A stretch of DNA of 64,000 nucleotides. Source: Utricularia gibba. Taxonomy: Eukaryota; Streptophyta; Magnoliopsida; Lamiales; Lentibulariaceae. Within the stretch, counting starts at the first letter, position 1; each line of letters opens with the position of its first letter. Position numbers and translations under genes: made by a program. The stretch spans positions 250,501-314,500 of the forward strand of contig NEEC01000014.1 of NCBI GenBank assembly GCA_002189035.1, read 5' to 3'. The notes under the pieces are model-generated. The model had not been told where the DNA came from and ran no database searches. It worked only from the letters and a program-made list of their open reading frames with translations. Below, piece by piece: positions 1 to 37,014 of the stretch.

Positions 1-322
1 CGGTATCCATCTCTTAATCAGAACCTGATATTGTTGCATAGTAATTGCAAATACGCCTTGCCCACCGCACACCCTATCACCGTCGTCGACATAACCAGCT
101 GCATCCCAGAGCATGTACTCGCGCACAGTGAATTGGGACTTTAAAACTCGGATAGCAACAATATTGGTTCCGATTAAGAGATGCGACACCGATCTTCAGC
201 AGCACCGCTGCCAGCATGAGCCCGACAGTAAAGGTGACGCGGAACAGGGAGAATTGTTGTGAATTGATGACGCTTAGTGTTTTTAGCTTATAAAAACAAT
301 GTGTTTTAATGTAACTTTTCAA

Positions 323-2425
323 TCTTTTAGTAATTTTACTAATATTAATATTTTTATGCCCAGAAGTTGATTAAATAATTGATTTAATAGTTTCCTAGTT
401 GTTAATAACAATTTTTTCCCAAGTCTTAATAGCAGCATTTCCAAAATCACCAAGTAAATTCTTACAAGCACTATGGCATGTAGCAAGTTGGAAGAGATTA
501 GACTAAAGTGACAAATTCTTCAACCCTGGATATTTTCATTAGCATCCGTAAACTGACTTCCTTTCAAATTTTTAAGTCATAAAAAAACTGTCAAATTACT
601 TACACTGATGATCCACAGTTGGAAGGTTTAACTGTGATTGAACCATTGATTTTTTTTAATTTTTTTCTTATGAAAAAATATGACATTTTGATTAAATCGT
701 AATTGAACCATGATTGAATCATGATTTTTTTATATATTTTAAAATGGTTCAGATTTAATTCAATTGTTTTGATTAATGATTCCCTATTCACTTTCTTCAT
801 ACGTGAGTTTGGTTTTATTAAGTTTATCATTTTTCATGGAATACAACCCATAAAGCCATTTCAAAGCTCTTCGGCAAAATGAAAGGGATTTGACTTGGTT
901 CTTTGTTGCTTTTGCACAAGTCATGTATAATTCTTGATCGGAGTCATCATTTTCCCTTCTAGCAAACTTAGAAAACATTTAAAATAGATACGAATATAAC
1001 TTATAGTTTACTTCTCTATCAAAGATGATTTCTTCCTTGATTGTATGTAATAACCGATGCTATCATCTAGTAACTACCACATAGTATCTAAAACCAAACT
1101 ACAAAATAACATATAGATCACCCCTGTAAGTATCCATCCAAAAGCCTTCACCAATCGTTGCCTCATCTATTTTGAATTTATATTTCAACTGAGTGCCCGT
1201 ACACCAAAATTAGTATGGCATGCTATTTTAATCAAGTATGACTTCAGACAAGCTTCCAGGAGGTAGGCTCTAAAGCTCTAATCCACTCCCAATATAAATA
1301 GTATGTTGCAATTTACTGCACTTAAAATGGGCCCAATGCATTTTCCTATTTACTAATGCTTTTGTGTTAAACTTTTCTTTTACAATGAGTTGCATCAAGT
1401 TCAACCGATTGTAAAATAAATACTACAAAAGATTACAATAATTGTCTAATTTAATATTTTTGAATTTTTCATAAAAATTGTTGAGTCAAATCCAAAAAAG
1501 TCATGAGTTTAGATTGAGTCAGATTCAATTCCGAATTCATCCCCAAATTTTAAAACACTGGCACAAGTCATTTAGATCGCCCACCCCTCGCATCCGTGCA
1601 ATTCAGTTCATATATGAGTGTTTCTTTAACCCAAAAAAAAAAAAAGGACTTTCTGCATTTATGCATGTCATCCTTACACTTGGGCCATGCTGATCTGTTG
1701 TATGTTGTTCCAATTTTATCGGGTGTCCACGTAGAGACATGCGTTTCTTCTTCTTCTTCTTCTTCCGTTTATCAGCAAAAAGAAATCACTTTTTTTTATT
1801 GTGATGACAAAACGCTTAATATAACAAGTCAGCCCACATCGCCGTTTCTTCTTTAATATAAATCGTACCTCCATAAACCAGATCTTCTGAAGGAAAAACA
1901 CGAATTCATAGTTATAAAAAACCATTGTTTTTTGTTTGGTTGATTCAGCTTCGTTATGCAATAAAAGGGCTTTGTAAGAACACTAATCCTTACGAAACTC
2001 CAGTATGTTCTGAACTTAAAAATAGGGGCTTATTATTCTATGCATAGCGTCTTAATAGCTTCACTTTTTACTTCAATAACCCTAAAGATGGCAATATCCC
2101 AAGAGGTGGAGATTTGGCGTTCGGGGGTGGTTGCACGATGCCGCATTTCTGGTTATCTGTACGTGCAAAGTTTCCCAAACGAAACATGTAGAATAAGAAC
2201 AGCAGTGTAATTTTTGTATAGACCTCATTCATTCATCTCTTACATAAACGGAGGAAAAGACACTCATATGCAGTCCAAGGGGTAGTTGCATGAGCACAAA
2301 TGGGTTAAGTGACAGCACCTTATTACACTTGAGGACTGTTTATTGTCGATTACATGACATAGGAAAAGATACGGGAGCAAGTGCCGGGGAATTCGTAGAA
2401 GACAAACGCCCACATGTCGTCTTTG
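323..2425. other. Left-arm DNA outside the gene, no gene recognised
   Basis: AT-rich DNA mirrored at 7736-9838. Several short open frames exist but none resembles a known family. Positions roughly 510-780 (mirror 9380-9650) are related to DNA at 27985-28180 and so belong to a dispersed repeat. A short GAA/TTC microsatellite lies near 1745-1766. Confidence 0.6.
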
Positions 2426-2962
2426 TTATATGAATTCCCATTTGGGTACACTCGCACTGATAATAGTACCAGCCACTGGTGGTGGAGGGTTGGCAAATAA
2501 TTTTGCATTTAGAAACAGAACCCCATTAGTCAGGTTTGAACAGGCAGCTGCTTGAAGTTGAATGGACAGACGACAAGGTAGCCAAGGAAACAGGAAAACA
2601 ACATTAGAGAAAGAATTTGCGGCCAATGTGAAGGCAACGGTTCCTGTGGTACCCGTTGAAGTTGTGGCCACCACAACCTCCCGTTGCGGCAGTGGCGGTG
2701 GCTGTGGTGGTGGCAGTGGCGGTAGCACTGGCGGTGGCAGTGGGACTGCAAGACAAAGAAGCCTTACAGGTTGGTTGAGAAGAGGAGGGATTGTAGTACC
2801 AGGATTACAGTTCCCGTCACTGGTACAACACACGTTGCTGGTTAGGTTCAATCCGAACATTCCCGGAAAGAGGTTGGCGGATGCCGGCACCATGGCCGTG
2901 ACAAACAGAATGACCATCCCGAGGGATAATGGAATGGACAGAACAAGGTTTGTATGAGCCAT
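2426..2962 (-). CDS. Phylloplanin-like (Ole e 1-like) secreted protein, left-arm copy
   Basis: This single-exon frame encodes 178 residues and is identical to the copy at 7199-7735. Residues 1-29 look like a signal peptide ending in an Ala-Ser-Ala context. The mature part has the layout of phylloplanin/Ole e 1-like proteins: a first Cys-containing segment (CCTSDGNC), a PVRLLC strand, a Thr/Ser-rich TSTGTTGTVAFTL strand and a later PCRLSI strand with more Cys. A proline-rich stretch of about 20 residues (PLPPP, PPPQPPP) is inserted around residues 72-92 and is unusual for phylloplanins. A TATAAATA box lies on the minus strand at 3011-3018. Phylloplanins are secreted leaf-surface or apoplastic proteins; that role here is inferred from layout only. 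Confidence 0.55.
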   Translation of the reverse strand: MAHTNLVLSIPLSLGMVILFVTAMVPASANLFPGMFGLNLTSNVCCTSDGNCNPGTTIPPLLNQPVRLLCLAVPLPPPVLPPLPPPQPPPLPQREVVVATTSTGTTGTVAFTLAANSFSNVVFLFPWLPCRLSIQLQAAACSNLTNGVLFLNAKLFANPPPPVAGTIISASVPKWEFI

Positions 2963-3018
2963 CTCTTTTCCACGTTAGGCAGTGAATGACGGAGGGTAAG
3001 AAATAACCACTATTTATA

Positions 3019-4303
3019 AGCGGCTTCGAACTTGTTCGCACAGGAGACTTTTCCAAAGGCAATTAAATCCCTAGACAAATAGAGCAATTAACCGGTCGAT
3101 TGTATTACATACCTGTTCATTTATTGTTCAAATCCATAACCGGGGCGAGTTTGATTAGAGATTAATTATTAGCACATGGTCAGTGCCCACTCGCCAATTC
3201 AAGTCAAATCCCGCGTGGAGGCATCCTTTTCCTCCAATTACACCATCTCTTCGTACCAACTCTTAATAAAGTGTCAAAGAATCGTCAGTAAGAAAAGTGA
3301 AACAAGTGCCAATGATTATGTATCTTGAATATGTGTGTTTTGGTGCACATGAAAAAGCAACTGCTCTTCTCTCTGTGGAAGTGCTCTCTCGGCATTCAAC
3401 TCTGGGATACGTAGGCATACGCTAATTTTGCGGCCAAGCCACTCTAAGAAATAGTATTTTGTACTCTGCAGTAGTTACTCTCAATACAAAACATAAAATA
3501 ATGCTGTGAGGGCCGTAGATTAACGGCTCTTTTGCATTGATTCTGATGCTTCACATTTTCAAAAGATGGCTTTTATGATCCAAGGGTTTTGAGACGAACC
3601 AACAGCTTATTTTTGCCAAGAAAAAAAAAGTTTCATTGCGAAGTTCGCGTGCGAGTGTTCCAGAAGCATGACGCAGGTACAGCAGATGAGAAATGGGGTC
3701 TTGAATTACTGCAACTGTAAACGAGAACAACTGACGAGGTTTAATTGGGGAGCTACGACTAAAACCCTAAACCCTAAAATGAGTGAGGGCAATAACGAGG
3801 TTTAATTACATGCCTAGCTACGCAAAATACACTCAAAGCCCTAAAACATAGATTGCGCAATTACGCGATAAAACCTTCTGAATTTAATTAATTCCCGTGC
3901 ATTCATTCACATTTCAGAATTATACTTTTAGGGGCCCCTCTGAATCCGGAAAGACATCATTATGTCTACTTTCATAGACCCTGAAATCTAAATGTCTCAC
4001 CTACGCGCCATGACTCAACGTTAGTGGATGAGAGATTTAGAAAAAAAAGAACTTGGTATGTTATTTAAAGAAGGATTAACTTTCATGTGTTTTATAGAAA
4101 ATTTTACGATTGAATTAACTGAATTTTTATAGGATATTGATTATAGACAATATTATATAAAATATTATCAAAATACTGATAATTCAAAATCTAATTAAAA
4201 AAGGTATTTTTTTTCATCGTAACCTTAAATTAGAGTGATTTTTGATAAAAGGTTTAAGATGATGAATTTATTCACAAAAGAAGAGAGAATAGCAAATATA
4301 TGT
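3019..4303. other. Upstream DNA of the left-arm gene, no gene recognised
   Basis: Mirrored at 5858-7142. It contains the promoter side of the phylloplanin-like gene and the telo-box pair. From about 3880 it becomes AT-rich without coding signs. I see no RNA gene or transposon signature here. Confidence 0.5.
3762..3779 (+). promoter_or_regulatory. Double telo-box-like motif (left arm)
   Basis: Two tandem CCCTAAA units lie about 800 bases upstream of the divergent gene at 2962. The mirror copy is at 6382-6399. This matches the plant telo-box (AAACCCTAA) found in promoters, and also a very short interstitial telomere repeat. Two units are too few to claim a telomere fusion. Confidence 0.4.
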
Positions 4304-5857
4304 GTAAAAAAAAATTTTTTGACGTAAGAGGGATAATAGTATTTTTTTGAATTATGAGATTGGTTAAATCCATCTAAATATTGATAAGAAAATTAAATCC
4401 ATCCAAATAATGGGTTTGTGTATCACTATTACTTAAGATTTAAATAATAAAATTTTGAAGATATCTATTAGATATTAATTACAACAAAACTTATGAATAA
4501 CTTGTATTATTTAAGATAAAATCAACATTTCATATATTACTGATCCTTATGGGTGGTTTGTTTCGTAGATAAGGTTGTGTAGATATAGCTTATTCGAGTA
4601 TATGCAATTGTATTTTGTGTGTTTAAAGAGTGATTCATATTTGAATTTTTATGGAAGATATTATTTGATAACCTATTATAAATTGTCATAGATTTTGTGA
4701 AAAAGGTTTAAGATACGAAAACATAAATTGAAACTCAAGTGACGTCACTTAATTAAGGGAATTAGTTATTGAGATTTTGTTTCCTACTTTGTATCTCATT
4801 GTATTGATTTTTACTGTTTTTTCCAAATAATCGGTTATAGAAATAAGTAAAAATCTATACTCACTTACATTCTATTATAAGTAGACATAAAAATAGCCTC
4901 ATGTTATTTTTATTAGAAGTTAGAGCAACGAGGTATACACTAATAGGTGGATCCCTCTATCGGAAATCCTTTGATGGACCCCTACTGAGATGTATCGGAA
5001 AAGAACAATTTCAAGACTTTATAACTGATTTGCACGAAGGAGAGTATGACTGTCATGTTGGAATGTGATCTTTGTACAGAAAAGCATTGAGAAGTAGGTA
5101 TTACTGACCAACTATGAAAAAAGACATCATGGAGGTAGTAAAAAAATGCAAGGTGTGCCAGTACCATGCGAGTATACCTAGAAAACCAATAAACAATCTC
5201 ACCGTTCTTCTGCTCTCATGCCCATTTGACCGTTGGGAGTAGACATCATGAGGCCTTTTCCCCAAACCTCTGGTCAAAGTAAATTTGTTATCATAGGAAT
5301 TGAATATTTTTCCAAATGAGTGGAAGCAGAAGCTGTGACAAAAATATCAGAGGAAACCGTTATCTGATTTTTATGGAGAAATATTTTCATTTGATTCGGA
5401 ATATCCTGGGAGCTGATAACCGATAATGGGACCTAATTCGCTGGGGGAAGATGGATACATGTTTGGATAGATATTTAATCAAGCACAACTTCACCTCAAT
5501 ATATCACCCAGAGCAATGGTCTTATGGAGGTTACAATCTGAATTCTCAAATAAGGTATCAGAACCAAACTTGAGGATTTCGGAGGATCACGGGCAGACCA
5601 GTTGGACGAGGTGCTATGAATGTGTTAAGTTGATATATGGGAGATGAGTTGGGTAGAAAGTCTAGTGAACTGAACATTTCCACTATTCGGTTTAAGTATT
5701 TGATTCTGGATGAATACATCATCAATCAGGCTCAAGATGGCCGAATACCCCGGGGTATAGGAGAGAGACCCCTTCCTCACTTAAGTCTCCCAATCCCCAT
5801 AGCATACTTGGAAAGCAGTCTTCGCTTTCTACTCCACCCCCTCATTGTTCAATTTCT
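4304..5857. other. Spacer of the giant inverted repeat
   Basis: This is the only unpaired DNA between the arms. The left part (4304-4940) is AT-rich with no gene. The middle part carries the Gypsy integrase remnant described separately. The right part (5620-5857) holds a short open frame without recognisable homology. Confidence 0.8.
4949..5620 (+). pseudogene. Decayed Ty3/Gypsy integrase fragment
   Basis: Read on the plus strand across stops and frameshifts, it encodes an integrase in order. The zinc-binding part is visible as LYRKSFDGPLLRCIGKEQF, then HVGM, MKKDIMEVVKKCKVCQYHA. The catalytic core follows: a VDIMRPFPQ segment, then IGIEYFSKWVEAEAV-like sequence (the Trp codon is a stop here), then an ITDNG-type motif near 5417 and a YHPE-SNGLMEV segment near 5505. 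Gypsy integrase normally lies between RNase H and the 3' LTR; none of the other domains nor LTRs are visible. It is too degraded to be active. Confidence 0.8.
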
Positions 5858-7142
5858 ACATATATTTGCTATTCTCTCTTCTTTTGTGAATAAATTCATC
5901 ATCTTAAACCTTTTATCAAAAATCACTCTAATTTAAGGTTACGATGAAAAAAAATACCTTTTTTAATTAGATTTTGAATTATCAGTATTTTGATAATATT
6001 TTATATAATATTGTCTATAATCAATATCCTATAAAAATTCAGTTAATTCAATCGTAAAATTTTCTATAAAACACATGAAAGTTAATCCTTCTTTAAATAA
6101 CATACCAAGTTCTTTTTTTTCTAAATCTCTCATCCACTAACGTTGAGTCATGGCGCGTAGGTGAGACATTTAGATTTCAGGGTCTATGAAAGTAGACATA
6201 ATGATGTCTTTCCGGATTCAGAGGGGCCCCTAAAAGTATAATTCTGAAATGTGAATGAATGCACGGGAATTAATTAAATTCAGAAGGTTTTATCGCGTAA
6301 TTGCGCAATCTATGTTTTAGGGCTTTGAGTGTATTTTGCGTAGCTAGGCATGTAATTAAACCTCGTTATTGCCCTCACTCATTTTAGGGTTTAGGGTTTT
6401 AGTCGTAGCTCCCCAATTAAACCTCGTCAGTTGTTCTCGTTTACAGTTGCAGTAATTCAAGACCCCATTTCTCATCTGCTGTACCTGCGTCATGCTTCTG
6501 GAACACTCGCACGCGAACTTCGCAATGAAACTTTTTTTTTCTTGGCAAAAATAAGCTGTTGGTTCGTCTCAAAACCCTTGGATCATAAAAGCCATCTTTT
6601 GAAAATGTGAAGCATCAGAATCAATGCAAAAGAGCCGTTAATCTACGGCCCTCACAGCATTATTTTATGTTTTGTATTGAGAGTAACTACTGCAGAGTAC
6701 AAAATACTATTTCTTAGAGTGGCTTGGCCGCAAAATTAGCGTATGCCTACGTATCCCAGAGTTGAATGCCGAGAGAGCACTTCCACAGAGAGAAGAGCAG
6801 TTGCTTTTTCATGTGCACCAAAACACACATATTCAAGATACATAATCATTGGCACTTGTTTCACTTTTCTTACTGACGATTCTTTGACACTTTATTAAGA
6901 GTTGGTACGAAGAGATGGTGTAATTGGAGGAAAAGGATGCCTCCACGCGGGATTTGACTTGAATTGGCGAGTGGGCACTGACCATGTGCTAATAATTAAT
7001 CTCTAATCAAACTCGCCCCGGTTATGGATTTGAACAATAAATGAACAGGTATGTAATACAATCGACCGGTTAATTGCTCTATTTGTCTAGGGATTTAATT
7101 GCCTTTGGAAAAGTCTCCTGTGCGAACAAGTTCGAAGCCGCT

Positions 7143-7150
7143 TATAAATA
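7143..7150 (+). promoter_or_regulatory. TATA box of the right-arm phylloplanin-like gene
   Basis: TATAAATA lies about 50 bases before the ATG at 7199. The mirror copy is at 3011-3018 on the minus strand. The spacing suits a plant core promoter with a short 5' leader. Confidence 0.6.
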
Positions 7151-7198
7151 GTGGTTATTTCTTACCCTCCGTCATTCACTGCCTAACGTGGAAAAGAG

Positions 7199-7735
7199 AT
7201 GGCTCATACAAACCTTGTTCTGTCCATTCCATTATCCCTCGGGATGGTCATTCTGTTTGTCACGGCCATGGTGCCGGCATCCGCCAACCTCTTTCCGGGA
7301 ATGTTCGGATTGAACCTAACCAGCAACGTGTGTTGTACCAGTGACGGGAACTGTAATCCTGGTACTACAATCCCTCCTCTTCTCAACCAACCTGTAAGGC
7401 TTCTTTGTCTTGCAGTCCCACTGCCACCGCCAGTGCTACCGCCACTGCCACCACCACAGCCACCGCCACTGCCGCAACGGGAGGTTGTGGTGGCCACAAC
7501 TTCAACGGGTACCACAGGAACCGTTGCCTTCACATTGGCCGCAAATTCTTTCTCTAATGTTGTTTTCCTGTTTCCTTGGCTACCTTGTCGTCTGTCCATT
7601 CAACTTCAAGCAGCTGCCTGTTCAAACCTGACTAATGGGGTTCTGTTTCTAAATGCAAAATTATTTGCCAACCCTCCACCACCAGTGGCTGGTACTATTA
7701 TCAGTGCGAGTGTACCCAAATGGGAATTCATATAA
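7199..7735 (+). CDS. Phylloplanin-like (Ole e 1-like) secreted protein, right-arm copy
   Basis: This is the same 178-residue protein as the left-arm copy, transcribed away from it, so the pair is divergent with 4.2 kb between start codons. The start is the first ATG after a TATAAATA box at 7143-7150. The frame has a signal peptide, then Cys, proline-rich and Thr/Ser-rich segments typical of small secreted wall proteins. Within the coding region, 7392-7415 resembles splice signals (GTAAGG and TTGCAG). They are only about 25 bases apart, too close for a plant intron, so the uninterrupted frame is preferred. If the palindrome is an assembly artefact there is only one gene. Confidence 0.55.
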   Translation: MAHTNLVLSIPLSLGMVILFVTAMVPASANLFPGMFGLNLTSNVCCTSDGNCNPGTTIPPLLNQPVRLLCLAVPLPPPVLPPLPPPQPPPLPQREVVVATTSTGTTGTVAFTLAANSFSNVVFLFPWLPCRLSIQLQAAACSNLTNGVLFLNAKLFANPPPPVAGTIISASVPKWEFI

Positions 7736-10250
7736 CAAAGACGACATGTGGGCGTTTGTCTTCTACGAATTCCCCGGCACTTGCTCCCGTATCTTTTCCT
7801 ATGTCATGTAATCGACAATAAACAGTCCTCAAGTGTAATAAGGTGCTGTCACTTAACCCATTTGTGCTCATGCAACTACCCCTTGGACTGCATATGAGTG
7901 TCTTTTCCTCCGTTTATGTAAGAGATGAATGAATGAGGTCTATACAAAAATTACACTGCTGTTCTTATTCTACATGTTTCGTTTGGGAAACTTTGCACGT
8001 ACAGATAACCAGAAATGCGGCATCGTGCAACCACCCCCGAACGCCAAATCTCCACCTCTTGGGATATTGCCATCTTTAGGGTTATTGAAGTAAAAAGTGA
8101 AGCTATTAAGACGCTATGCATAGAATAATAAGCCCCTATTTTTAAGTTCAGAACATACTGGAGTTTCGTAAGGATTAGTGTTCTTACAAAGCCCTTTTAT
8201 TGCATAACGAAGCTGAATCAACCAAACAAAAAACAATGGTTTTTTATAACTATGAATTCGTGTTTTTCCTTCAGAAGATCTGGTTTATGGAGGTACGATT
8301 TATATTAAAGAAGAAACGGCGATGTGGGCTGACTTGTTATATTAAGCGTTTTGTCATCACAATAAAAAAAAGTGATTTCTTTTTGCTGATAAACGGAAGA
8401 AGAAGAAGAAGAAGAAACGCATGTCTCTACGTGGACACCCGATAAAATTGGAACAACATACAACAGATCAGCATGGCCCAAGTGTAAGGATGACATGCAT
8501 AAATGCAGAAAGTCCTTTTTTTTTTTTTGGGTTAAAGAAACACTCATATATGAACTGAATTGCACGGATGCGAGGGGTGGGCGATCTAAATGACTTGTGC
8601 CAGTGTTTTAAAATTTGGGGATGAATTCGGAATTGAATCTGACTCAATCTAAACTCATGACTTTTTTGGATTTGACTCAACAATTTTTATGAAAAATTCA
8701 AAAATATTAAATTAGACAATTATTGTAATCTTTTGTAGTATTTATTTTACAATCGGTTGAACTTGATGCAACTCATTGTAAAAGAAAAGTTTAACACAAA
8801 AGCATTAGTAAATAGGAAAATGCATTGGGCCCATTTTAAGTGCAGTAAATTGCAACATACTATTTATATTGGGAGTGGATTAGAGCTTTAGAGCCTACCT
8901 CCTGGAAGCTTGTCTGAAGTCATACTTGATTAAAATAGCATGCCATACTAATTTTGGTGTACGGGCACTCAGTTGAAATATAAATTCAAAATAGATGAGG
9001 CAACGATTGGTGAAGGCTTTTGGATGGATACTTACAGGGGTGATCTATATGTTATTTTGTAGTTTGGTTTTAGATACTATGTGGTAGTTACTAGATGATA
9101 GCATCGGTTATTACATACAATCAAGGAAGAAATCATCTTTGATAGAGAAGTAAACTATAAGTTATATTCGTATCTATTTTAAATGTTTTCTAAGTTTGCT
9201 AGAAGGGAAAATGATGACTCCGATCAAGAATTATACATGACTTGTGCAAAAGCAACAAAGAACCAAGTCAAATCCCTTTCATTTTGCCGAAGAGCTTTGA
9301 AATGGCTTTATGGGTTGTATTCCATGAAAAATGATAAACTTAATAAAACCAAACTCACGTATGAAGAAAGTGAATAGGGAATCATTAATCAAAACAATTG
9401 AATTAAATCTGAACCATTTTAAAATATATAAAAAAATCATGATTCAATCATGGTTCAATTACGATTTAATCAAAATGTCATATTTTTTCATAAGAAAAAA
9501 ATTAAAAAAAATCAATGGTTCAATCACAGTTAAACCTTCCAACTGTGGATCATCAGTGTAAGTAATTTGACAGTTTTTTTATGACTTAAAAATTTGAAAG
9601 GAAGTCAGTTTACGGATGCTAATGAAAATATCCAGGGTTGAAGAATTTGTCACTTTAGTCTAATCTCTTCCAACTTGCTACATGCCATAGTGCTTGTAAG
9701 AATTTACTTGGTGATTTTGGAAATGCTGCTATTAAGACTTGGGAAAAAATTGTTATTAACAACTAGGAAACTATTAAATCAATTATTTAATCAACTTCTG
9801 GGCATAAAAATATTAATATTAGTAAAATTACTAAAAGATTGAAAAGTTACATTAAAACACATTGTTTTTATAAGCTAAAAACACTAAGCGTCATCAATTC
9901 ACAACAATTCTCCCTGTTCCGCGTCACCTTTACTGTCGGGCTCATGCTGGCAGCGGTGCTGCTGAAGATCGGTGTCGCATCTCTTAATCGGAACCAATAT
10001 TGTTGCTATCCGAGTTTTAAAGTCCCAATTCACTGTGCGCGAGTACATGCTCTGGGATGCAGCTGGTTATGTCGACGACGGTGATAGGGTGTGCGGTGGG
10101 CAAGGCGTATTTGCAATTACTATGCAACAATATCAGGTTCTGATTAAGAGATGGATACCGATCATCTCCACACATATACGAGCACAAATGCGATGGTAAA
10201 GGGGATACGAATCAGGAAGAATTGGCATGAATTTCTTGGTGATCAGGAGC

Positions 10251-11194
10251 ACACATCAAATCCCTATAGATAAGTTTTGTAGAAGCTGCTCACGAGCCCC
10301 AAACGGAATTGGTTGGATGGAACAGATACTGGGCCAAGAAATGAAACACACTCTCCTTGTCAGGAAATAGATTATCTAGTTCCTGCTCAAAACATGTCAT
10401 CGAGAAGAAAGAGGGGACGAAATATAGATACAACAGGATCATCAACCAGGGTACCTCCGTTACATATGATTGATCTTCATCACAAAAGAAACGTTTATCG
10501 ACTTCTCCAAAGTTTATGTATAGGTGGATGTATGCGTAGAGTTGTGGAGGGGTTGAGATACCTGAATTACCCAACAAGTTGTTTCCCAATAGTTTCCCGA
10601 AGGATTCCTCAGATTCTTTGTTAAAACCATCCAATTTATGAGCCAACGGGAAGTCCAAAGGAAGCAACCAAAAACTCTCAGGAAAAGGGTTCACAAAAGA
10701 GATCAACGAGGATAACCCTATCAGTGAGAAGAGAATACAAAAATGTGGAAGCAAGACTGAGGATTCTATTTCCTAATCCATCCGAAGGGAGCCATATAAC
10801 GTACTTGCATTCGAAGAGTGCAGTAGACATGTTGAATTTGAGGGCATGAATTGTCATGTTATATAGAAATGTACACGGAGCACATCTCTTGTGCCGAGCC
10901 TCATAGCTCCGTAACTTGGAGAGAAGATATAAAGAAGGTTTTCCGTTCTTTAATCTTTGCGTTAAGAGGAAATCATACCTGCTATAGCAAGAACGTCGGT
11001 CGAATCCACTTGGAGGGAGGTTGGTTTGATGCTGGAATTGATAACTGCCTTGGTTAGGGTTATACTCAAGATGGGCATACCTTTGTAAAGAAATGCGAGG
11101 ATCATCCCAAAAGTAGTAGAAAAAAGAAAACGAGTTTCAACCCATTCCGGATAGATTGCGTCAGTAACATCTTGAATGGTGTTTGGCGTTCCAT
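10251..11194 (-). pseudogene. Truncated GT37 fucosyltransferase pseudogene
   Basis: This is a clear relative of the intact gene at 58344-59942, read on the minus strand. The ATG at 11194 starts MERQTPFKMLLTQ and a membrane anchor as in the intact gene. The frame is broken soon after, and the middle domain reappears as a 154-residue open segment (10290-10754) containing FPESFWLLPLDFPLAHKL and FFCDEDQSYVTEVPWL. Relative to the intact copy it lacks about 21 bases near 10703 and one C near 10295. Homology ends at about 10251, before the GDP-fucose-binding IQIR motif and the whole C-terminal half. The upstream 130 bases also match the intact gene's promoter, so the duplication included regulatory DNA. 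It lies about 90 bases from the end of the palindrome. Confidence 0.9.
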
Positions 11195-14100
11195 GGTCTG
11201 AACGGGAATAAGTAAAGCCTTCAGATTACCTTCACTCGCACGTAGGAAAATGTCAATGGAGATGGATATCGCATAACGAGTTGTACGAGACATAAGCAAG
11301 AATTGAACCTACGCTATATATAATGAATTAGAGGAAATGAATGTTATTATTTCATTTGACCGTATGCTCACGTAGGGAATCTTTTCAGAGTGAGTGCACC
11401 ACAAATAAAAAAAACTAAAAAAAAAAAGCAATTTCCTATACAAACAAAAAATAATAATACCAAGTATTCATGTAACCACGAATTCATTCATGTGCAGCGT
11501 GGGTTATCAACATAGCAAATAAATAATAATGATACAAATATTTGATAAACGATAATTTCACATCGTCGAGTAAATTAGAAATTTTTGTATTCAATGAAAT
11601 TCATAAAACTGTTATCCTCATTAAATATAAATTAGATACAAGATGAATAGTGGGTTTTGGAGTTGAACTCAAAGAAATAATAATTGTGATGTGAAAATAG
11701 GCAAAAAAACACAGGTTAATTATATTTTAAGTTGTAAATAAAATTAAATGTAAGTAAACAATAAAATATAAATTAAATAAAGTAATATAAAACATTAGAC
11801 CTTAATTTAAAAAATTAAAACGTAAGTATCTCAATGATTTCTGGGGAATGTCCTCACTTGATATTGAATTTTAGGATTCAAAAATATTAACTAACTTCAG
11901 ACGGTCTAGTTCTACATGAACCAATTTTTATGGTTATTTTTTTTAATTTTTACGAGTTTTCTAATATCACCTTATACTTAGATTCACCATTTCTTAAGCT
12001 AAATAAGACAAAATCTAACTAATTCTATTAATTTCTACCTGTGAATTCTATTAATTCATATACTTATGAAAATATATCTCACTTTTTTTGTCTACCTCTA
12101 TGATTGAGTTTTCTTTTTTCTTTTTTCCTACATCTATTCCAATTTGTTAGAAAAATTCACATAAACATTCACAAGTTTTCAAACCTTAGGCTGATATTAC
12201 ATCTCTTCCTATTCTTCCCTAAAGCACACCACATAATATCTATCTACCCATACCAAAATAAATCAAAACCTCATAAAACAAAGGTAAAATCATGTTCATA
12301 GCTATAGTCATAACATTAAAACGACAAGCTCGAAGTAAAATGTTCAATCCTACAAATGATAATAAATCGAGTTATGATTCCACAATATTGCTTCCAATTA
12401 GGAGCAATAGCGCTTGAGAATAATTTCTTGGGTCTTTGTCTCGGTTGAGGTGGCTCCTCTTTATTGATCCATTTCACCACCCTCCTCTTGGATATATGGT
12501 CTCTTGTTTTCGAATTCTCTCCAAAACAATATATCTTTTTTCTTTTTCATTTCTCCTAAATATCTCTATTTTTCTATACTTTATAGTTTTCATGGTTTAA
12601 CCAAGAGAATGTTGAAGGTTGAATTAGTCTATCATATGCTCTCCTCATATGTCATGTCTACTCGATTTTATGTACATAATTAGACGTGATTTGCATCATA
12701 GTACTATTAATACTTGCAAAAACATTAAAAAACATAATATGGGCTAAACCATCAATTTACTCTACATTTACACATAAAAAATACAAATAACATTAAAATT
12801 ATCAAAATATTAAAAACCATAATTCAAACATCTAATTGCACGGTTAAACATTGATAGAAAAACACTAACGAAATATGTATTTTGAACTATATTACATATA
12901 TTACGAAAATACTTCAGTTTTTTGTATTAATTACGTATCAATATGTAATACTCAAATATACAATATGATACATATATCAATAGTCTAGCTATTAGCTCAA
13001 TTGGATCTGTTATTATATATATGCATAAAATGTTGAGTTTAAATGCCAAAACAATTTTATCAACTTCTTTTGAGTAAAACGAAAACAAATTGTCTACCTA
13101 TTAGCTTAATTGTTCCACGTGGCTTGTGAGTAAACCGAAAACAAATAATTATTTTTTTTTAAAAAAAGATTACTTATCCAACTAGCGCTTACCATGGGAT
13201 TCGTTCCATTAATTAAGCATCCGGAATTTAAGAAAGCCTAAATATTAATAAATAAATATTGGGGTTGAAGGGAAGCAATGCCTAAGACACCCCTAATTTA
13301 TAAATGTAACTATTTATATATCACGATATGGAATCTTGATTTTAGTATTGAGCTCATTAATATAGCAATTTTGTGGTAGAAAACATAGCAATGCGGAATC
13401 TTTATTTAAAAATGCACGAGTCAAATGAGGGCTTGGTGTTTATAAAATGTAATATCAAATGAAATTTAATTCATTTCTAAAATTAAGAATAATATGACAA
13501 CAAATATATGAGATCACAAGTAATAGTATATTAAACTCTCAACATTAAATTTACTAAACTTAAAAATGTAGATGATTTTTAATTTTTAATTTTTTTAAGT
13601 TTTTTAAAGCATATTATATTTGAGTCTACTATTTTATAAGGTAAATAAGATTAAATTTACCCGATTTCTACCTGTAAATTCATTTGTCTACTTTTTGTCC
13701 TACCTCTAATGGTATGGTTGATGAGGGTCGTGAAATTAAGGATGAAAATTAGATGGATGAATTGGATGCTGTGGTCAAATTCATTCAATTGAATGTTAAC
13801 AAAGATGAAAATAAGGATAAATTCAGATCTTTTTTCTGCATTATCATCTCGATGTTGTATTCTATATGTTGGATTGAATTGTTTGTATACATGTAAAGCT
13901 AACAAAGATGAAAATAAGGATTACACGATTTGCTCACCTGAACATAACCAGATCGGGCTAAACTGCAAGCCTACACTTCTCCAACTCAAATCAAATCTAC
14001 TATTATTTTTTAATGCATTAGTGCATCTCGATCAATATAGATCGACACAATATTCACAAGCAAGATGAATAATCGATAATATATTAACAAATTTCAGAGA

Positions 14101-14639
14101 TAACAACCAATCGAAGGTAAATAACTCACTTTCCTAAATAACCATAAAATTAACAAAACTTACCATCAAATTATCATCTTCTTAAAGTCATTACGTACAG
14201 CCACATATCATGGAAGATTCACTAGTTGCTTTATCACTCAAACTTCCCTTATCCTCAAATCTCATCCACACATTTCTTCATTGACTTTTTATTAGTTCAG
14301 CTTATACTTAGGCTAATAATTTAATTGCACTCTTGTTGTGATTAAAAATAGATTCTGAGAAGGAATCCGATTTGGAGTGTTAAACTGGTATTTATGCTTC
14401 TGATTTAACGGTTTCGTAGTTCGATTTTGGTGTTATGATCAAAGCAATAAAGAAAGCTGAAGATTTTTTTTACATGAAAACCATTAGCATGGAAAACCAT
14501 GGAGTTGGGTAGCTCATCGAAGAAGATGGTTTCACTAAAAAGAAAAAAGGGGAGAATTACAAGTTATGCGTAGAATGCAAGTGAATCTCTCTTAAGGGAT
14601 TCAGAAACAATGGTACCCCTTTTGTGCTGAGTTGTTCCA
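11195..14639. other. AT-rich intergenic DNA, no gene
   Basis: The first 130 bases match the promoter of the intact GT37 gene at 59943-60066. The rest is AT-rich without a credible gene. A degenerate repeat links 12036-12105 with 13660-13710. A 20-base direct repeat occurs at about 13799 and 13903. Positions 13821-13857 match the DUF7796-like fragment near 27918-27953. Confidence 0.6.
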
Positions 14640-15838
14640 TTTTAATTGCTCATCTTTTTTTCTTCCCTTGCATACCAGCTGGATGTGTTCCTTTTCTTGA
14701 CGATAGTTACAAATCTTGCACGGTGATAGAAATAGTTGGTAGGCAGGTGATTTTTCTGGTTGCAATATGGGCACGGTTAAAAGTCACTCTTCCCTTCTTT
14801 ATTATAATTTTGCATAATAGGTCCAGTTTGCATAGCCTTAAACTTATAATTGGTATCTTTTTTCTCTTATTTCAGCATCTTCAAGTGCTTCTATCAATTG
14901 AGCAGGTAAAAGTCTCTTCATTCCTCCTGGCAAAGCGATGGCACTAATACCAGAATTGTAGAGTCTAGGGAGCACTCCAACGATCTTCTCTTTTACTCTA
15001 CTGTCATCCATACTTTCCCCTAGTGCTTTCAATTTTTTGACCGCAGGTATCAACGTGCCCTTGAAAGTTGCTACAGAGATTCCAGAGTATAGTTTCAGGT
15101 CATCCATCTGTAGCTCTCCAATGATTGGTAACCTCTTTTCCTTTCTTTCATCTGCGATTGAGAATTCTTCGACAAGCGCATCCCAAACTTCCTTTGGGAA
15201 GGTGCAGTGGATAATATGATTATAAACTTCCCGCATGAGTGCAGCATCAAGTACACTTCTTCCTAGAGGAGACTTGTCATTCTATTTTTTTGTAGCCTCG
15301 GCATCATCATCATTGAACTTGGGAGTTTCTAGAAAGACATCCCAGAGTTTCAACAGCCGTCTTGAGGTGGTTAGTCATTTTCACAGCCCAAATCGTATAG
15401 TTCTTAACATCAAAGACAGTGGGCGGTAATGAGCTAGCTGATGCCATGATAACGATCTACTATCTGCAGGAAACAGGATGAGTGAAAGAATAAAACCAGT
15501 GGGTGGTAGAGTGACCTGAGTTGATCTTGGTCTCTTGGAATTTCTCAGAATCCCAAAGCTATCACCATGAAAAGGTTCTATAGGTTCCAAGCTTGAAGCC
15601 TTGAGATTGGGTTACCATCTTGAACGCAGAGATTGAGAACTACAAGCTTATAAGTCAAGAAGAGGATTAAATTTCAAAACTTACAATTTTCAGTACAGGT
15701 TATACATATTTATAGGGCAGTCTCAACGGCTAAAAAAACAGCCGTTAATTTGTCTGCTTGTGTGCCTCCTGATGGGCTGAGTGTAGGCTGAGATGTTTTT
15801 CCTTTAACTTAGGAATAATGATTACAATCATAATGTCA
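14640..15838 (-). mobile_element. Copia fragment: 5' LTR, primer-binding site and gag
   Basis: Minus-strand remnant of a Copia element related to the one at 46722-52131. The putative 5' LTR is about 15568-15838. It is followed on the minus strand by a primer-binding site (TGGTGATAGCTTTGGG), a leader, and a gag start near 15446. Gag (15446 down to about 14640) has frameshifts. A 130-residue open part shows the EVWDALVEEFSI and VKKLKALGESMDD segments of the UBN2-type gag. Further down a decayed CPYCNQKNH zinc-finger region is visible. Everything after gag is missing. Confidence 0.85.
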
Positions 15839-16309
15839 AGTTTTATAAAAACATGTACTTTTAGTTTTTAATTTTAAAAAAATATTATTTGAGATAAACG
15901 TGAATTGAGCACTTAAACTTTAACTGCAAAATATTTTACCAACTAAGATACGGACATGGGTTACATAACCCATGCCAATGTATATATGTTTAAGACACAA
16001 GGACACCATGTGGCATATAGATAAATGATGTTGATATGGTTTTCTTGAGCATATAGTTTAATTGATGTTTTTTTATCTTTGTTAAATCTTTGGGTCAAAG
16101 ATTTGATTCGGATTTGTTGTAAATTATATATTTTATAAAATTAAAATTAATTCAAAAAGACATAAAAAAATTGAAAATGATTAATTAAAATATTGAAAAT
16201 TTTATTAATTTTAATTTTTCATAAAACTAATAATATAAAATTGAGATATTGTACATATTATAACAGTTTGTATTATAAATCAGAATGTTATATATATTAT
16301 AAAAACTAA

Positions 16310-16361
<52 letters not shown>

Positions 16362-16749
16362 TTGTTTTAGTGTTTTTTTAATAAAAATTAGTTCTCTCAT
16401 TATATTAAATATGATATATTAAAATTAAGACTATTTAGAAAAAATATAAATAAAATAGTACTATAATGTAAAGATTTTTGAAATAGCACTATTTAACCAA
16501 TTAGTTTGCATATCGGTAATTAGCTAAATTATCCTACAAACAAATGACCCATTGCTTTTCCAGGGTTTCTTAATTAATGTCCTAGAACTGTGTTCCAAAG
16601 CTATGCTCAGATCCCTCAAGGGGGGTTGATTAGAAATTTAGGCGCTGTAAAAATTGTATGTGAGAAAAGTAGGGAGTTTTAGTATAAAATTTTTACCATA
16701 GTGTAAGGATGCTTACATTCATAAATGACCCCTCACGGGGGCTATACAA
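15839..16749. other. Intergenic AT-rich DNA with a microsatellite
   Basis: No gene seen. A compound (TA)n(TG)n microsatellite occupies 16310-16360. The right end contains the promoter of the proline-rich gene, with a TATAAAT-type box near 16753. Confidence 0.7.
16310..16360. repeat. (TA)n(TG)n compound microsatellite
   Basis: About nine TA units run directly into about sixteen TG units. This is a typical polymorphic simple repeat. Confidence 0.95.
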
Positions 16750-16812
16750 TGATATAAATGGGGGAAGGCTGTGCGCTTAATATCACCTTGTAGTAGTCAC
16801 TCGTATACAAGG

Positions 16813-17061
16813 ATGACGACGGTTGGCCGCTCTATTCCTCTAGTTTTTCTCTGTCTTGCTGCGGCAACCACAGCTTTTCTTCATTGCCCACCGCCACCAC
16901 CACCGGATTCACCTCCTCCGCCCTCACCGCCACCACCCGAATCACCTCCTCCACCCTCACCGCCACCGCCGATTCACCTCCTCCACCCTCACCGCCACCA
17001 CCGGATTCACCTCCTCCACCCTTACCGCCACCGCCCAATTCACCTCCCCCACCCTCACCGC
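16813..17061 (+). pseudogene. 5' part of a proline-rich secreted-protein gene, split by a Copia element
   Basis: The ATG at 16813 follows a TATAAAT-like box near 16753. It opens a frame with a signal peptide (MTTVGRSIPLVFLCLAAATT) and then Ser-Pro repeats of the (D/E)SPPPPSPPPP type, as in extensins and proline-rich wall proteins. After about 50 residues a single lost C near 16968 shifts the repeat out of frame; the same peptide repeat continues in another frame. At 17061 the gene is interrupted by the Copia element. The last five bases (ACCGC) reappear after the element, so the gene continues at 22226. The combination of frameshift and insertion means it is very probably dead. Confidence 0.8.
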
Positions 17062-17348
17062 TGTTGGAATAAGGTGTATTGGAGAAGGGATGCTCTATCC
17101 CACATTGCTAGTTGAACACATGTTCAACTAGTTTATAAGGGAAGACAACCCAATACATTTGATGGGCTTGAGAGTAAGTTGGGCCTCACGCGCCCGCAGG
17201 GTCTTAATTTATTAGATCGGGTTGGGCTCCGGGTTGGGCTCCCGGAGGCTTCTCGAAGGGTCTCTTGAATTTTGGGGGATCGTGAAATCTTTAGGACAAC
17301 ATTTATGTGTCTGAGGTTTTCTTCTTTTTTTGTGTTCGATTTACAACA
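17062..17348 (+). repeat. 5' LTR of the 17-22 kb Copia element
   Basis: 287 bases, TG...CA ends. It matches 21951-22225 except for scattered differences, including an extra GGGTTGGGCTCC-like duplication near 17228. Confidence 0.95.
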
Positions 17349-17365
17349 ATCTAAAGAATATTCTC

Positions 17366-20300
17366 GATGGATCCGACTGGTGCCTCTTTGGAAAACCCTA
17401 ACCCGCCGCTGCCCGTGCCTCCGGTGACCTGCACACTGTTCACCAACGCCACTCCGACACTGATGACCTCCCTATTGTAAATCTGGTTGCTATGCCGGCA
17501 TTGCAGATAAATCCTGTCCATCTGGTCCAGAATCCGCTTGTCTCCGTGCCACAGGTCACCTCTGGTCTTCACGATCTGTCCCTGAGTCATCCGGTTGTGA
17601 GTCGCCAGTTCCCTGATACTGCAAAAATCGAGCCCTTTGATGGAAAGAATTTTCGGCGCTGGAAAGATCGCATCTTTGAGTTGCTGGATATGCATGGCAT
17701 TGCCTGGGCTCTTGAGGTTTCCAAACAGGAAGCCACTAACTCTGATATCCTCGCTACAGGCTGGGATTGAGCGAGCCGGGTATGTCGTCATACCATTATT
17801 ACCACCCTTGGTGATAGTCTCTTCGATGTGTATGTAGTCTTCAAGGATGCTGCCTTCATATGGAAGTCGATGACTACCAAGTACACTGCAGAGGAGGCTG
17901 TGACATCCAGATTTGCAGTCACTAATTTTCTGCAGTGGGAGATGACTGATGACAAGGAGGTGGTAGTCCAAATCAATGAGTTCCATCGCCTCCTGGACAA
18001 CATGACTACTCAGAACTTTGATCCACAAGCTGCCACGAGGATGGGATGACTATAAGGCAAAGATTCGTCAATTTGATCGCAAGATGACTCTGGACCACCT
18101 GATCAATCACATTGCAATTGAAGAGAGGCAGAGGAAAACAGGTAAGAAGCCTATGAGCCATGAGTACCCGGCGAATGTTATGAAGAACAAACAAGGGAGG
18201 TACAAATCTCGCTCCAAACCTTATGATTCTGGTTCTCATATTGTATTAGCTCTTACTAATGATGGTATCAAAAAGAAAAAGGGCCATTGTTTTGTCTGTG
18301 GTAAGCTAGGGCACTATGCAGCACAGTGCAAGCACAGGAAGACTGGCAAACCTGGTAGTGAGCTTCCCAAAGCCAATGTTAACATGGCTCAGGGGGATGA
18401 TAATGATGAAGTGATTGTCACCATGCTGGGTTACTTGAACCTAATTGAGGCTAGTGGTGACTGGATCATGGACTCTGGAGCAAACCGTCATGTTTGCTCA
18501 AGGAAGGATTACTTCTCCTCCTATAGTCCACTTGGAGGTGACAATCACGTGATCAAGTTTGCTGACAAGTCTACTACTCCAGTGCCTGAAAAGGGAGAAG
18601 TCACCCATAAGTTCACCTTAGGGAAGACTGTCCTTCTGAGAGATGTGTTGCATGCCCCTGCCATAAAGACCAATGTCATCTCAGCTATCCAGATGGATAA
18701 GTGTGGCCTAAACATCAACTTAGGCAATGGGGTTGTTGTGGTGATGAAGAACAATGTCTTTGTTGGGAAAGAATACATTGGTAGTCAGGAGTTATATGTA
18801 ATGAATGCTATCATTATTTTTGAGAATAAAGTTGATTCTGCTTACATGATGTGTTCTTTTGATATTTGGCATGCTAGGCTAGGTCATGTGAATTATACCT
18901 ACATGAAAAGGATGCAGTAATTAAATTTGATTCCTAGATTGCATGAGTTACCTACTAAGTGTGAGACTTGGGTAGAGGCAAAGATGACTAAGAAATCATG
19001 CTTTTCTGTGACTAGGGAATCTGAGTTGCTTGCATTGATTCATTCAAATGTATGTGATTATAAGATGTGTGTATCTAGATGTGGCAATAAGTTTATGGTT
19101 ACTTTTATTGATGATTGCTCTAGATATACTCGTGTATTTGCTGAAACATAAATCTAAAGCATTTGAGAAGTTTCTGCTATTCAAAGCTGAGGCAGAAAAC
19201 CAACTTGACAAGAAAACAAAGAGAGTCAGATCTGATAGAGGAGGTGAGTATGTATTATTCAAAGACTTCTGTGAGAAGTATGGAATAATATATGAGACTA
19301 CTTCTCCCTACTCTCCTGAGTCAAATGGAGTTGCTGAGAGGAAGAAGAGGACATTGAAAGAAATGATGAATTCAATGCTTATTACTTCTGGCACTCCAGG
19401 TGAAACGTGGGGGGAAGCGATTCTCACTACTTGTCATGTTCAGAATAGGATCCCACATAAGAAAACAGGCAAAACTCCATATGAGATATGGAAAGGTTAT
19501 GCATCAAACCTTAAGTATTTAAGGGTGTGGGGGTGCTTAGCAAAGGTGATGTTACCTGATCCTAAGAAAAGGAAGATTGGGTCAAAAACATCTGATTGTC
19601 TGTTTATTGGATATGCACAAGGGAGTGCTGCATATCGATTCCTTGTGATCAAGAGTGATGTCCTTGATCAGCATACAATAGTGGAAACAAAGAATGCTGA
19701 ATTCTTTGAACAAATCTTTTTTCTAGTAGGAAAACACCAAGATGATGGTGATGAGACACCTATCACTGAACCTGCTGAAACTAGTGAACCCTTGGAGGAA
19801 GTGCCTCTGAGAAGAAGCAATAGGTAGAGGATAGAGTCTAGCTTCGGCGATGACTTCTATGTGTATCTCACTGATCCTCTGACCTACCATGCTGCAATTA
19901 CTTCCAGATGCTCCATTGTGGATGGAAGCCACTCTGAGTGAGATGGACTCGCTCCATCATAACAAGGTATGGGAAGTAGTGGACCTACCTCTTGGGGCAA
20001 AGTCAATTGGGAGCAAGTGGATCTTTAAGAAAAGGTTCCTTGCAAATGGTAAAGTAGACAAATACAAGGCTCGCCTTGTAGCAAAGGGTTTCACTCAGAA
20101 ACCAGGTGTTGACTACTTTGAGAAATTTGCCCCAATGGTTCACTTCTCTGCCATACGAGTACTCTTTGCAATGGCTCTGTACACAATTGGACAGTACACC
20201 AAATGGATGTCAAAACGGCATTCTTGAATGGTGAATTGGAGGAAGAAATCTACATGTTTTAGCCTGAGGGTTGCATAAAGGCTGGAGATGAACACAAAGT

Positions 20301-21420
20301 GTGTCGACTGAAGAAGTCACTGTATGGCTTGAAGCAAGCACCTAAACAGTGGCATGAGAAATTTGATAAAGTCATAACCTCATTAGGCTTCACATCAAAT
20401 ATAGTCGAAAGATGTGTTTATTCTAAGACTTTTAATGATCAATGTGTGATCATAACCCTCTATGTGGATGATATGCTAATCTTTGGGCCAAACCTTCACA
20501 CTGTGCTAGAGGCCGAGAAATTTTTAGCTTCTAAATTTGAGATGAAGGACATGGGTGAAGCCAGCTACATATTGGGAATCAAAATTGTGAGAAATGAAGA
20601 AGGGTTTCTACTGACTCAAAGTCATTACACTGAGAAACTCTTAGAGAAATTTGGGTTCCATGAGGTGAAACCAAGTCGTACTCCATATGATCCCAGTATT
20701 AGCTTGAAGAAAAATAGAGAGGACCCTATGTCCCAGAGTAAGTATGCTCAGATAATGGGCAGTGTGATGTATATAATGAACCATACCCGACCTAACATAG
20801 CGTATGCAGTGGGTAGACTGAGTCGATACACACACAACCCAAATGAAAGACATTGGGCAACTGTGAGATGGTTATTGAGATACCTCAAAGGGACAGCTGA
20901 CCATGGCATTCAGTATCAGAGAGAACCCACTGTACTGGAAGGATATAGTGATGCTAGCTAGGTATCTGGGAAAGAAGAGCCAAAGGCCACAAGTGGAATG
21001 ATTTTCACATTAGGCAAAGGCGCTGTGTCCTGGAAATCCACCAAACAAACCTTGATAGCTAGATCAACAATGGAAGCTGAGTTCATTGTATTAAATCTAG
21101 CAAGAATTGAGGCTAAGTGGTTGAGAAACTATGTGATGGGAATACCACTCAAGCAACATGGATCCTTCTCAGTGGTGCTGCATTGTGACTGTCAAGTAGC
21201 AATTGTCACTGCCAAGAATCGATCCTATAATGGAAGAAATATCCACATGCGATTGAGGCATGGAACATTGAGACAGCTGTTGAAAACCAGTGTGATCTCT
21301 GTTGAATACGTGAGAACGTCAGTGAATTTGACCGATCCACTGACCAAGCCTCTCAATAGAGAGAAGATCTGTGAGCTTTCGAGGGGAATGGGACTAATGT
21401 TGTTGAGCAAATGGCAGTGA
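17366..21420 (+). pseudogene. Copia gag-pol polyprotein, multiply interrupted
   Basis: The ATG at 17366 (MDPTGASLENPN) starts gag, which soon breaks. Gag resumes at 17492-17770 and 17828-18049. The segment 18018-18920 is open and holds the zinc knuckle CFVCGKLGHYAAQC and the protease motif MDSGANRHVCS. Integrase is at 18927-19827 with SDRGGEY and YSPESNGVAERKKRT. RT lies in 19889-20961 with KARLVAKGFTQKPGVDYFEKF and the catalytic YVDDMLIFG. RNase H lies in 20998-21420 with STMEAEFI. At least five stops or frameshifts separate these parts, including one around 20225 within RT. Copia membership follows from integrase preceding RT. Confidence 0.92.
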
Positions 21421-21950
21421 TGGTAACCCAACCTGTGAGAGGAGAAACACCTTGATCAGGTTCATATGGGTAATAACAAGTCACTGCTAGTTTTGAGAAC
21501 ACAAATTATGGCAAGTGGTCATTCCTATGGAATATGTGTTCTACCTGCAAAGTGATGGATGAGTATTTGCTCTTAATGTCTCTGTAACTGATGAAATTCA
21601 GTAACACATAGAAGTAGGGTATGTTAGGCAGAGACACCTATATAAGTGTGGAGGATAGCCACTCCTATGAGATATATGTGATCTCTAGAGCACTTATGAA
21701 CCAACAGGAGTTGCACCGGGCTTATGGGTGCGCTTGAGCGTTAAACAGTCGATAAATGTCGGGGTAGGCTTGATGTGGTTGGCTATGCCTCTGTATCACA
21801 ATATAGTATTCGGTTCATAGAAATACAATTTCACCGTCTACTTAATCATACATGTGTAGGGCAATCAAGAGATTGGTTCATAATCGAAAGATACCATTCT
21901 CCAGACATTAGAGCCTACATGACTTGGGCCTTCTCCAATATGTGGGGGAT

Positions 21951-22225
21951 TGTTGGAATAAGGTGTATTGGAGAAGGGATGCTCTATCCCATATTGCTAG
22001 TTGAACACTGTTCAACTAGTTTATAAGGGAAGACAACCCAATACCTTTGATAGGCTTGAGAGTAAGTTGGGCCTCGTGTGCACGTAGGGTCTTAATTTAT
22101 TAGATCGGGTTGGGCTCCCGGAGGGTTCTCGAAGGGCCTCTTGAATCCCGGGGGATTGTGAAATCTTTTAGGACAGCGTTTACGTGCTTGAGGTTTTCTT
22201 CTTCTTTTGTGTTTGATTTACAACA
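21951..22225 (+). repeat. 3' LTR of the 17-22 kb Copia element
   Basis: 275 bases, with the same ends as the 5' LTR. It is preceded by the polypurine tract and followed by the TSD copy ACCGC. Confidence 0.95.
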
Positions 22226-33301: not shown

Positions 33302-34591
33302 TTATTCCATCGGCTTCTCGAAGACCGCCGAGAGGTAGACCTGATTCTGCAGTGCCGGATTATCAGTCTTTTTCCCCACATTCCATCTCAAGATATTGAA
33401 ACCTACTCGTTTGAGAACGGGGACATACGTTTCCTCGAGTTGCGGGCTCGAGCAGAAGAAATGGTCTAACCAAAACAGGCCACCAGGTCTCAGTATTCGA
33501 TAAATATCGTAAAGAATGAACTCCAACATAATCCCAGGGATCCAGTTACTGAGCATATGCATCGAGTGAACGATATCAAGTGTGTTTTCGAAGAAAGGAA
33601 GCCTCTGTGAAATGGAGATGTGCATTGACAGCAACCCTCGAGAGGCAATGAAGCTGTTGAAAGGTCCATCTAGGTTCATGCTAGTTGTTATGATCGTCAC
33701 GTTCCTCTCCATCATACGAGCTGCAAACGTACCCGATCCACCACCTATGTCAACACCGATGCGTATCGTTCCATGAGGTTTCAGTGCAAGAACTTGATCA
33801 ATGCCGTACTCGATGCCCCGATCGCGCAGCCACCTCTTTCCTTCTCTGCGTTCCAGGTCAAAGCAGTCATTGCAATCGAAATAGGTTTGTTTGTCACGCC
33901 ACCTTTGCCGCAGGCAAGCGTAGTTCTTACAAGTATATGAATCCCAAACAATGCTTGTGTCTGGTGGAATAGACCACAAGCTTTTTGGGAGGGGAGACGG
34001 TTCGACGTAGTTTTTGGGAGATTTGGGATGGCACCTCCTCCTAGGAAGCGGCTCACATCCACGAAGCATCATACTCTGAGCAGAAACCTCATCCATCGGG
34101 CACTCTCCTCCAGCTTGATAACTCATGAATTTCTCGAGTTCCTCTTTGTGCTTCAAGCAACCAGCTCCATACGAAAATGCAATCTCACTCCCCATTCTTA
34201 GATTATATCCATTAGGAAGATTGTGACTGCCTAGGGCAAGCTTCGCCTCACTGCTTAAATCTGACAAAGGAGTGCGCAATTCCAGCTGCAAGGTGTTACC
34301 TTTTGATGACCCCCCTTCATTCCTCAATTGGTGTACAAGTGAGCGGCAGGCGGCAAGGCCACCACTGAGTTCATGAATGAAAGAAGAATAATCAAACTCT
34401 GTGAGTCTAGTGCCAGAGAAGGCGTAGAATGTGACAACGTTCGTTAGTATTACAAGGAGAAGAACCTTGAACAGTGTACTCCACTTCTCGGTTTTGTCAC
34501 GATAATAAAAGGTTTGCTCCATCCTTGGATTCAAGGGAATGTCAGTTCTATTTCTATTCTCTATTTTCCTAATCGATGGGCCAAGAGGCAT
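33302..34591 (-). CDS. Membrane-anchored SAM-dependent methyltransferase-like protein
   Basis: This single-exon frame encodes 429 residues. A membrane anchor spans about residues 40-58 (LFKVLLLVILTNVVTFYAF), consistent with a type II Golgi or ER protein. A Cys-rich middle region (CEPLPRRRC, then NDCFDLE) precedes a Rossmann-type methyltransferase domain with SAM motif VDIGGGSGTFAARM at about 280-293. Post-motif segments (DIVHSMHMLSNW, then YRILRPGGLFWLDHFF) fit class I methyltransferases. It resembles the plant family annotated as probable methyltransferases of the At1g29790 type. The substrate is unknown. A TATAAAAA box on the minus strand at 34667-34674 supports the ATG at 34591. It sits between GT37 copies, divergent from the gene at 37015. 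Confidence 0.85.
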   Translation of the reverse strand: MPLGPSIRKIENRNRTDIPLNPRMEQTFYYRDKTEKWSTLFKVLLLVILTNVVTFYAFSGTRLTEFDYSSFIHELSGGLAACRSLVHQLRNEGGSSKGNTLQLELRTPLSDLSSEAKLALGSHNLPNGYNLRMGSEIAFSYGAGCLKHKEELEKFMSYQAGGECPMDEVSAQSMMLRGCEPLPRRRCHPKSPKNYVEPSPLPKSLWSIPPDTSIVWDSYTCKNYACLRQRWRDKQTYFDCNDCFDLERREGKRWLRDRGIEYGIDQVLALKPHGTIRIGVDIGGGSGTFAARMMERNVTIITTSMNLDGPFNSFIASRGLLSMHISISQRLPFFENTLDIVHSMHMLSNWIPGIMLEFILYDIYRILRPGGLFWLDHFFCSSPQLEETYVPVLKRVGFNILRWNVGKKTDNPALQNQVYLSAVFEKPME

Positions 34592-34666
34592 GAAACTCGA
34601 TGTGGGTAGGACAGCGGAGGTGCTTCAAGATCTGAAGATGATAAGAACTACTTCAAGAGCTCATCC

Positions 34667-36872: not shown

Positions 36873-37014
36873 GGTGTCTCCCTTTCCAACATTTTTACAG
36901 CGCAAAAACACTATTCTTTTCAGATGGATCATGAGAACCCTCTTCCCTCAATTCCATTCATTCTTGTAGTGACACAAGAATCATCCTGAATATCAATCTA
37001 TCTTGTGCCACAAA

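Follow-up and report, generated by a model that had tools for sequence, protein, structure and literature searches.

How did a nearly perfect palindrome come to lie in the genome of Utricularia gibba, which of its arms is the original, and is the structure real? The window analysed here is a stretch of 64,000 nucleotides (G000:C98:250501-314500) within a 3.15-Mb contig, and a sequence-only reading of it had reported, at its left end, a 10,160-bp palindrome with arms of at least 4.3 kb. For the present analysis, 55 kb of upstream sequence (G000:C98:195501-250500) was added; positions upstream of the window are given as negative numbers, and neither that DNA nor the window contains any N.

Window positions 1-4303 match the reverse complement of 5858-10160 at 4303 of 4303 bases, without a single indel. 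The reported pairing of landmarks with a sum of 10161 and no indel over 4.3 kb is therefore right, and chance cannot give such a match. The lower bound on arm length also held; the outer limit did not, being only the left edge of the window, and the actual arms are about three times longer (13.16 kb). The whole palindrome covers 27,882 bp and consists of the following parts:

-8861..4303 (G000:C98:241639-254803; 1..4303 within the window), minus strand: full left arm, 13,165 bp, read below as the derived, inverted copy
4304..5857, no strand: single-copy spacer, 1,554 bp, with an AT-rich left part and repeat fragments
5858..19020, plus strand: right arm, 13,163 bp, read below as the ancestral copy; it is contiguous with the spacer to the left and runs on into an intact Copia element to the right

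The full arms are 99.94% identical. Their eight differences comprise two transitions and six one-base length differences, five of which fall in runs of at least four identical bases, the remaining one being GGG/GG. A 600-bp arm query gave two high-identity matches only, these same two arms, so there is no third copy or separate haplotype in the 100 Mb of genome searched.

The arms had been described as non-coding, which is in part incorrect, as each of them carries a 178-codon ORF, a U6-like copy, a fucosyltransferase pseudogene and part of a Copia element. The features of the arms and of the adjoining element are:

2426..2962, minus strand: 178-codon ORF of the left arm, with a signal-peptide-like start
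7199..7735, plus strand: the same ORF in the right arm
8423..8524, plus strand (mirror 1637-1738, minus strand): U6 snRNA-like copy (57.9 bits), visibly diverged, with a long T run after it
10253..11318, minus strand: truncated xyloglucan fucosyltransferase (PF03254) pseudogene of the right arm, a paralogue of the intact gene at 58344-59957
13131..13337, minus strand: arm block with one other relative in the genome searched, the flank end at -9080..-8862
14847-15281: old Copia gag fragment, present in each arm
16797..17061, plus strand (mirror near -6.8 kb): proline-rich ORF into which Copia has inserted
17062..22225, plus strand: Copia element with LTRs at 17062-17348 and 21951-22225 and the target-site duplication ACCGC on both sides

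The 178-codon ORF has no Pfam match, and its product presumably resembles phylloplanin and Ole e 1-like secreted proteins. A 2.5-kb tandem paralogue of the inner arm, 83% identical, lies about 102 kb to the right (L055 3891-6461; C98:357891-360461) and contains an open copy of this ORF that is 59% identical. The U6 snRNA-like copies are probably pseudogenes. The proline-rich ORF is open in the left (new) arm, and the lack of one base shifts its frame in the right (original) arm; as it is open in one and broken in the other, a sequencing error in one arm may be responsible. Each arm also contains an imperfect 40-bp inverted repeat (-2..37 / 155-194, mirror 9967-10006 / 10124-10163) enclosing a region with relatives on C255 and C409 (72-75%), possibly a small element. 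This repeat was considered as the arm end and rejected, since it sits within the arm. A plasmid search gave no match.

Dispersed repeats at the borders allow the two copies to be told apart. First, the arm boundary at 19020 lies inside the Copia element, between its gag/protease and integrase regions; the integrase and reverse transcriptase run on beyond this point, and other Copia copies in the genome (the best 93% identical) continue through the position matching it. The border between the right arm and the right flank is thus ancestral, and that between the left flank and the left arm is new: the left arm has just the first 1.96 kb of Copia, cut at -8861 and followed by unrelated DNA. Second, copies elsewhere in the genome of a gag-like fragment located at the right end of the spacer cross 5857/5858, reaching about 18 bases into the right arm (to ~5875); hence the spacer/right-arm border is ancestral as well, and the left-arm/spacer border is new. 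With both right-arm borders ancestral and both left-arm borders new, the left arm is the derived copy. Orientation was compared with two paralogues: the fucosyltransferase pseudogene in the right arm has the same orientation as its best paralogue (58344-59957), and the 83% identical paralogue of the inner arm (C98:357891) has the right arm's orientation. Judged by these sequence comparisons, the right arm is the original and the left arm is a new inverted copy of it.

The new outer junction is informative in another way. The last block of the left flank (-9080..-8862) is 79-85% identical to the arm block at 13131-13337 and has no other relative in the genome searched. Its homology to the arm block stops exactly at the junction, and the left flank was therefore probably truncated there, within this local paralogue. 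Microhomology at -8862/-8861 amounts to at most a base or so, and this second junction joins other sequence. An ancestor in which the left flank and the spacer were contiguous was considered and found no support: the flank should then continue as the arm paralogue, and the spacer does not match it.

The composition of the spacer bears on whether the palindrome could be an assembly artefact. Its components are:

From 4304: AT-rich left part with a C328-like repeat (to ~4385)
~4638-4908: dispersed repeat
~4912-5618: gypsy integrase fragment
5650-5875: dispersed gag-like fragment, extending from the spacer into the right arm

This is coherent genomic sequence, including the gypsy integrase fragment and other repeats, with no unaligned filler; the full-length 1554-bp spacer has a single match in the genome searched, and one of its edges is independently ancestral. 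These properties argue against an origin from a fold-back long read or from a head-to-head join of two haplotypes, an explanation that we regard as unlikely, even though arms this nearly identical, with length differences mostly at homopolymers, resemble consensus noise. Fold-back artefact reads are common, and some of them have ~2 kb between their halves (PMC12870357); however, the 13-kb arms here end abruptly on both sides, the left flank being a different, truncated sequence, and neither new junction has a long overlap prone to misjoining, the nearest other Copia copy being 93% identical. A haplotype misjoin should moreover extend the homology outward, whereas the 46 kb of left flank and the 45 kb of right flank share only scattered gene-family and repeat matches. 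A heterozygous inversion could also mislead an assembler; the specific case of such an inversion stitched together by the assembler was rejected, because the inversion allele would put the other end of the spacer on the left arm. It is thus very probable that the structure is real rather than an artefact.

The same borders bear on whether the palindrome could be a transposable element (of the Foldback or long-TIR MULE type) whose terminal inverted repeats are very long, as long inverted arms do flank an internal segment. This origin is extremely unlikely: the arms end in the coding region of another element, Copia, a target-site duplication is lacking at -8862 / 19021, the scanned ORFs of the arms and spacer yielded no transposase, and DNA searches with arm segments recovered no second copy of the unit in the genome searched. 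A transposon of this kind was rejected on the grounds of its ends inside Copia, the missing duplication and the missing further copies. The spacer was likewise considered as a transposon end and rejected, since it holds just a gypsy integrase fragment and a gag-like piece, and no element end was found in it.

The inner junction gives an indication of how the copy was initiated. At its left edge the spacer consists of sequence from a small repeat family, whose copy on C328 aligns across 4303/4304 with 76% identity over 124 columns. Left of 4303/4304, the C328 copy matches the innermost sequence of the arm, ATTTATTCACAAAAGAAGAGAGAATA, at 23 of 26 positions, a score reached or exceeded by 0.02% of random local segments and by 0.2% of AT-matched segments (empirical p 0.0002-0.002). 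In a second family member, on C412, the same region is part of the repeat, which lends weak support to the inverted homology. The comparison draws on one distant copy (C328), since the spacer no longer has its ancestral left edge; it suggests that the ancestor probably had a short imperfect inverted repeat at both edges of the spacer.

Taken with the borders, these observations make it probable that the palindrome is genuine and arose very recently, as an inverted segmental duplication generated by fold-back priming at a break (or by a strand switch of a replication fork). We infer a break, a fold-back or template switch, and end-joining, in the following order. The ancestral arrangement would have been left flank, DNA since lost, spacer, right arm and Copia. 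A break or stall would have occurred to the left of the spacer, and the free 3' end would have folded back onto the short imperfect inverted repeat 1.5 kb away, or the fork would have switched strands there. Synthesis would then have copied 13.16 kb outward via the right arm, as far as the middle of Copia, after which a join with little or no microhomology would have attached the new end to the left flank, truncated within the diverged local paralogue, the loop of the fold-back staying as the single-copy spacer. In the left arm, the 18 bases closest to the spacer resemble the template and not the spacer, so that fold-back would also need tail removal or heteroduplex repair. The predicted empty site has the order left flank, extra DNA, a C328-like repeat with a ATTTATTCACAAAA-like sequence, spacer and right arm.

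Template switching at a replication fork (FoSTeS/MMBIR or ODIRA), in place of a broken end folding back, would leave the same junction anatomy (short inverted homology, single-copy spacer, and non-homologous joining at the second junction), and these junctions do not separate the two routes. We consider it possible, if doubtful, that template switching was responsible: both flank ends look truncated, suggesting that DNA was lost between the left flank and the spacer, as after a break, and ODIRA in particular predicts an inverted triplication, whereas two copies only are present here.

Fold-back priming has been described in other organisms. Human inverted duplications with spacers of 766-70,466 bp have been explained by a resected end that folds back and primes synthesis (Hermetz et al., 2014, PMC3907307), and the 1,554-bp spacer falls within this range. 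The human cases and the present one share an inverted copy beside the original, a single-copy spacer of a few kilobases and a second junction to unrelated sequence, and probably also a short inverted homology at the spacer edge. They differ in that the human duplications are mostly megabase-scale, terminal and dicentric-derived, whereas the present 13-kb duplication is interstitial and belongs to a plant genome, that of Utricularia gibba. In yeast, widely spaced and divergent inverted repeats can seed fold-back in single-stranded DNA; the Alu repeats used in those experiments greatly exceed in length the 26-38 bases inferred here (PMC10164571).

The two substitutions in 13.16 kb (95% range, about 0.2 to 7) correspond to 1.5e-4 per site. 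Substitution rates were assumed to be 2.5e-9 to 1.3e-8 per site per year, which would date the separation of the arms to some 6,000 to 30,000 years before present, provided that they were not reset by conversion. The LTRs of the Copia element differ by K = 0.082, so by this sequence measure the duplication is later than the Copia insertion (~0.08 for the LTRs vs ~1.5e-4 for the arms). Recent formation, gene conversion and assembly error had all been offered by the sequence-only reading as reasons for the identity of the arms. The contrast between arm and LTR divergence bears out the first: the arms are identical because the duplication is recent. Conversion is not needed, and assembly error is disfavoured by the coherent single-copy spacer and the lack of a long overlap at the junctions.

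An older palindrome, with arms held identical by arm-to-arm gene conversion as on the mammalian Y and willow W chromosomes, is quite unlikely. The inner 4.56 kb of the arms are free of differences and seven of the eight differences are located further than 8.9 kb from the spacer (KS p = 0.007), a pattern that would fit stronger homogenisation of the centre, and a diverged inverted paralogue of one arm block was already present in the left flank; nevertheless, the distribution comprises eight differences only, of which six are one-base length calls and possibly consensus errors, a non-homologous join, rather than the end of a conversion tract, forms the outer boundary, and recent formation alone accounts for the data. 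The closest plant parallel is the palindrome W.P1 on the W chromosome of Salix purpurea, in which, as here, a spacer of a few kilobases separates arms that are almost identical. The willow palindrome differs in its ~20 kb arms, its location in a sex-determining region and the demonstration of conversion by interspecies comparison, set against 13 kb arms and one genome only in the present case (PMC7023750). As willow sex-chromosome palindromes have ~20 kb arms with >99% identity (PMC7023750), the earlier description of the present structure as unusually large was an overstatement.

The palindrome is situated within a cluster of xyloglucan fucosyltransferase (PF03254) genes (24974-26371, 36973-38622, 41345-42985, 58344-59957, and one at about -52.8 kb in the left flank) that have long open frames and mixed orientation, accompanied by several fragments. 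The window also contains a long ORF with a methyltransferase domain (Methyltransf_11/29) at 33305-34624, minus strand, and a Copia-like polyprotein, minus strand, with open frames of 1000 and 417 codons (48618-51620 and 47364-48617), apparently from a fairly young copy. The duplication doubled one small ORF and several dead sequences within this cluster, and it has no evident function.

A regulatory role would follow if the palindrome were homogenised by conversion and transcribed across the spacer: the very long hairpin could then give rise to putative siRNAs silencing dispersed relatives, namely the 178-codon ORF family, the fucosyltransferase cluster and the Copia family. Such a role appears very unlikely. 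Both copies of the 178-codon ORF, the only intact one in the arms, point away from the spacer, and the arrangement thus has no built-in read-through into a hairpin. A newly formed inverted repeat this large is also of the sort that can give rise to hairpin siRNA loci.

The inverted duplication is a clean instance of a mutation type already known; it does not represent a novel kind of element. Owing to the youth of the copy and to the information in the repeats around it, original and new copy, as well as the four junctions, can all be distinguished from one another. It supports the view that duplication by fold-back or template switching, best studied in yeast and in human disease, also adds to plant tandem gene clusters.
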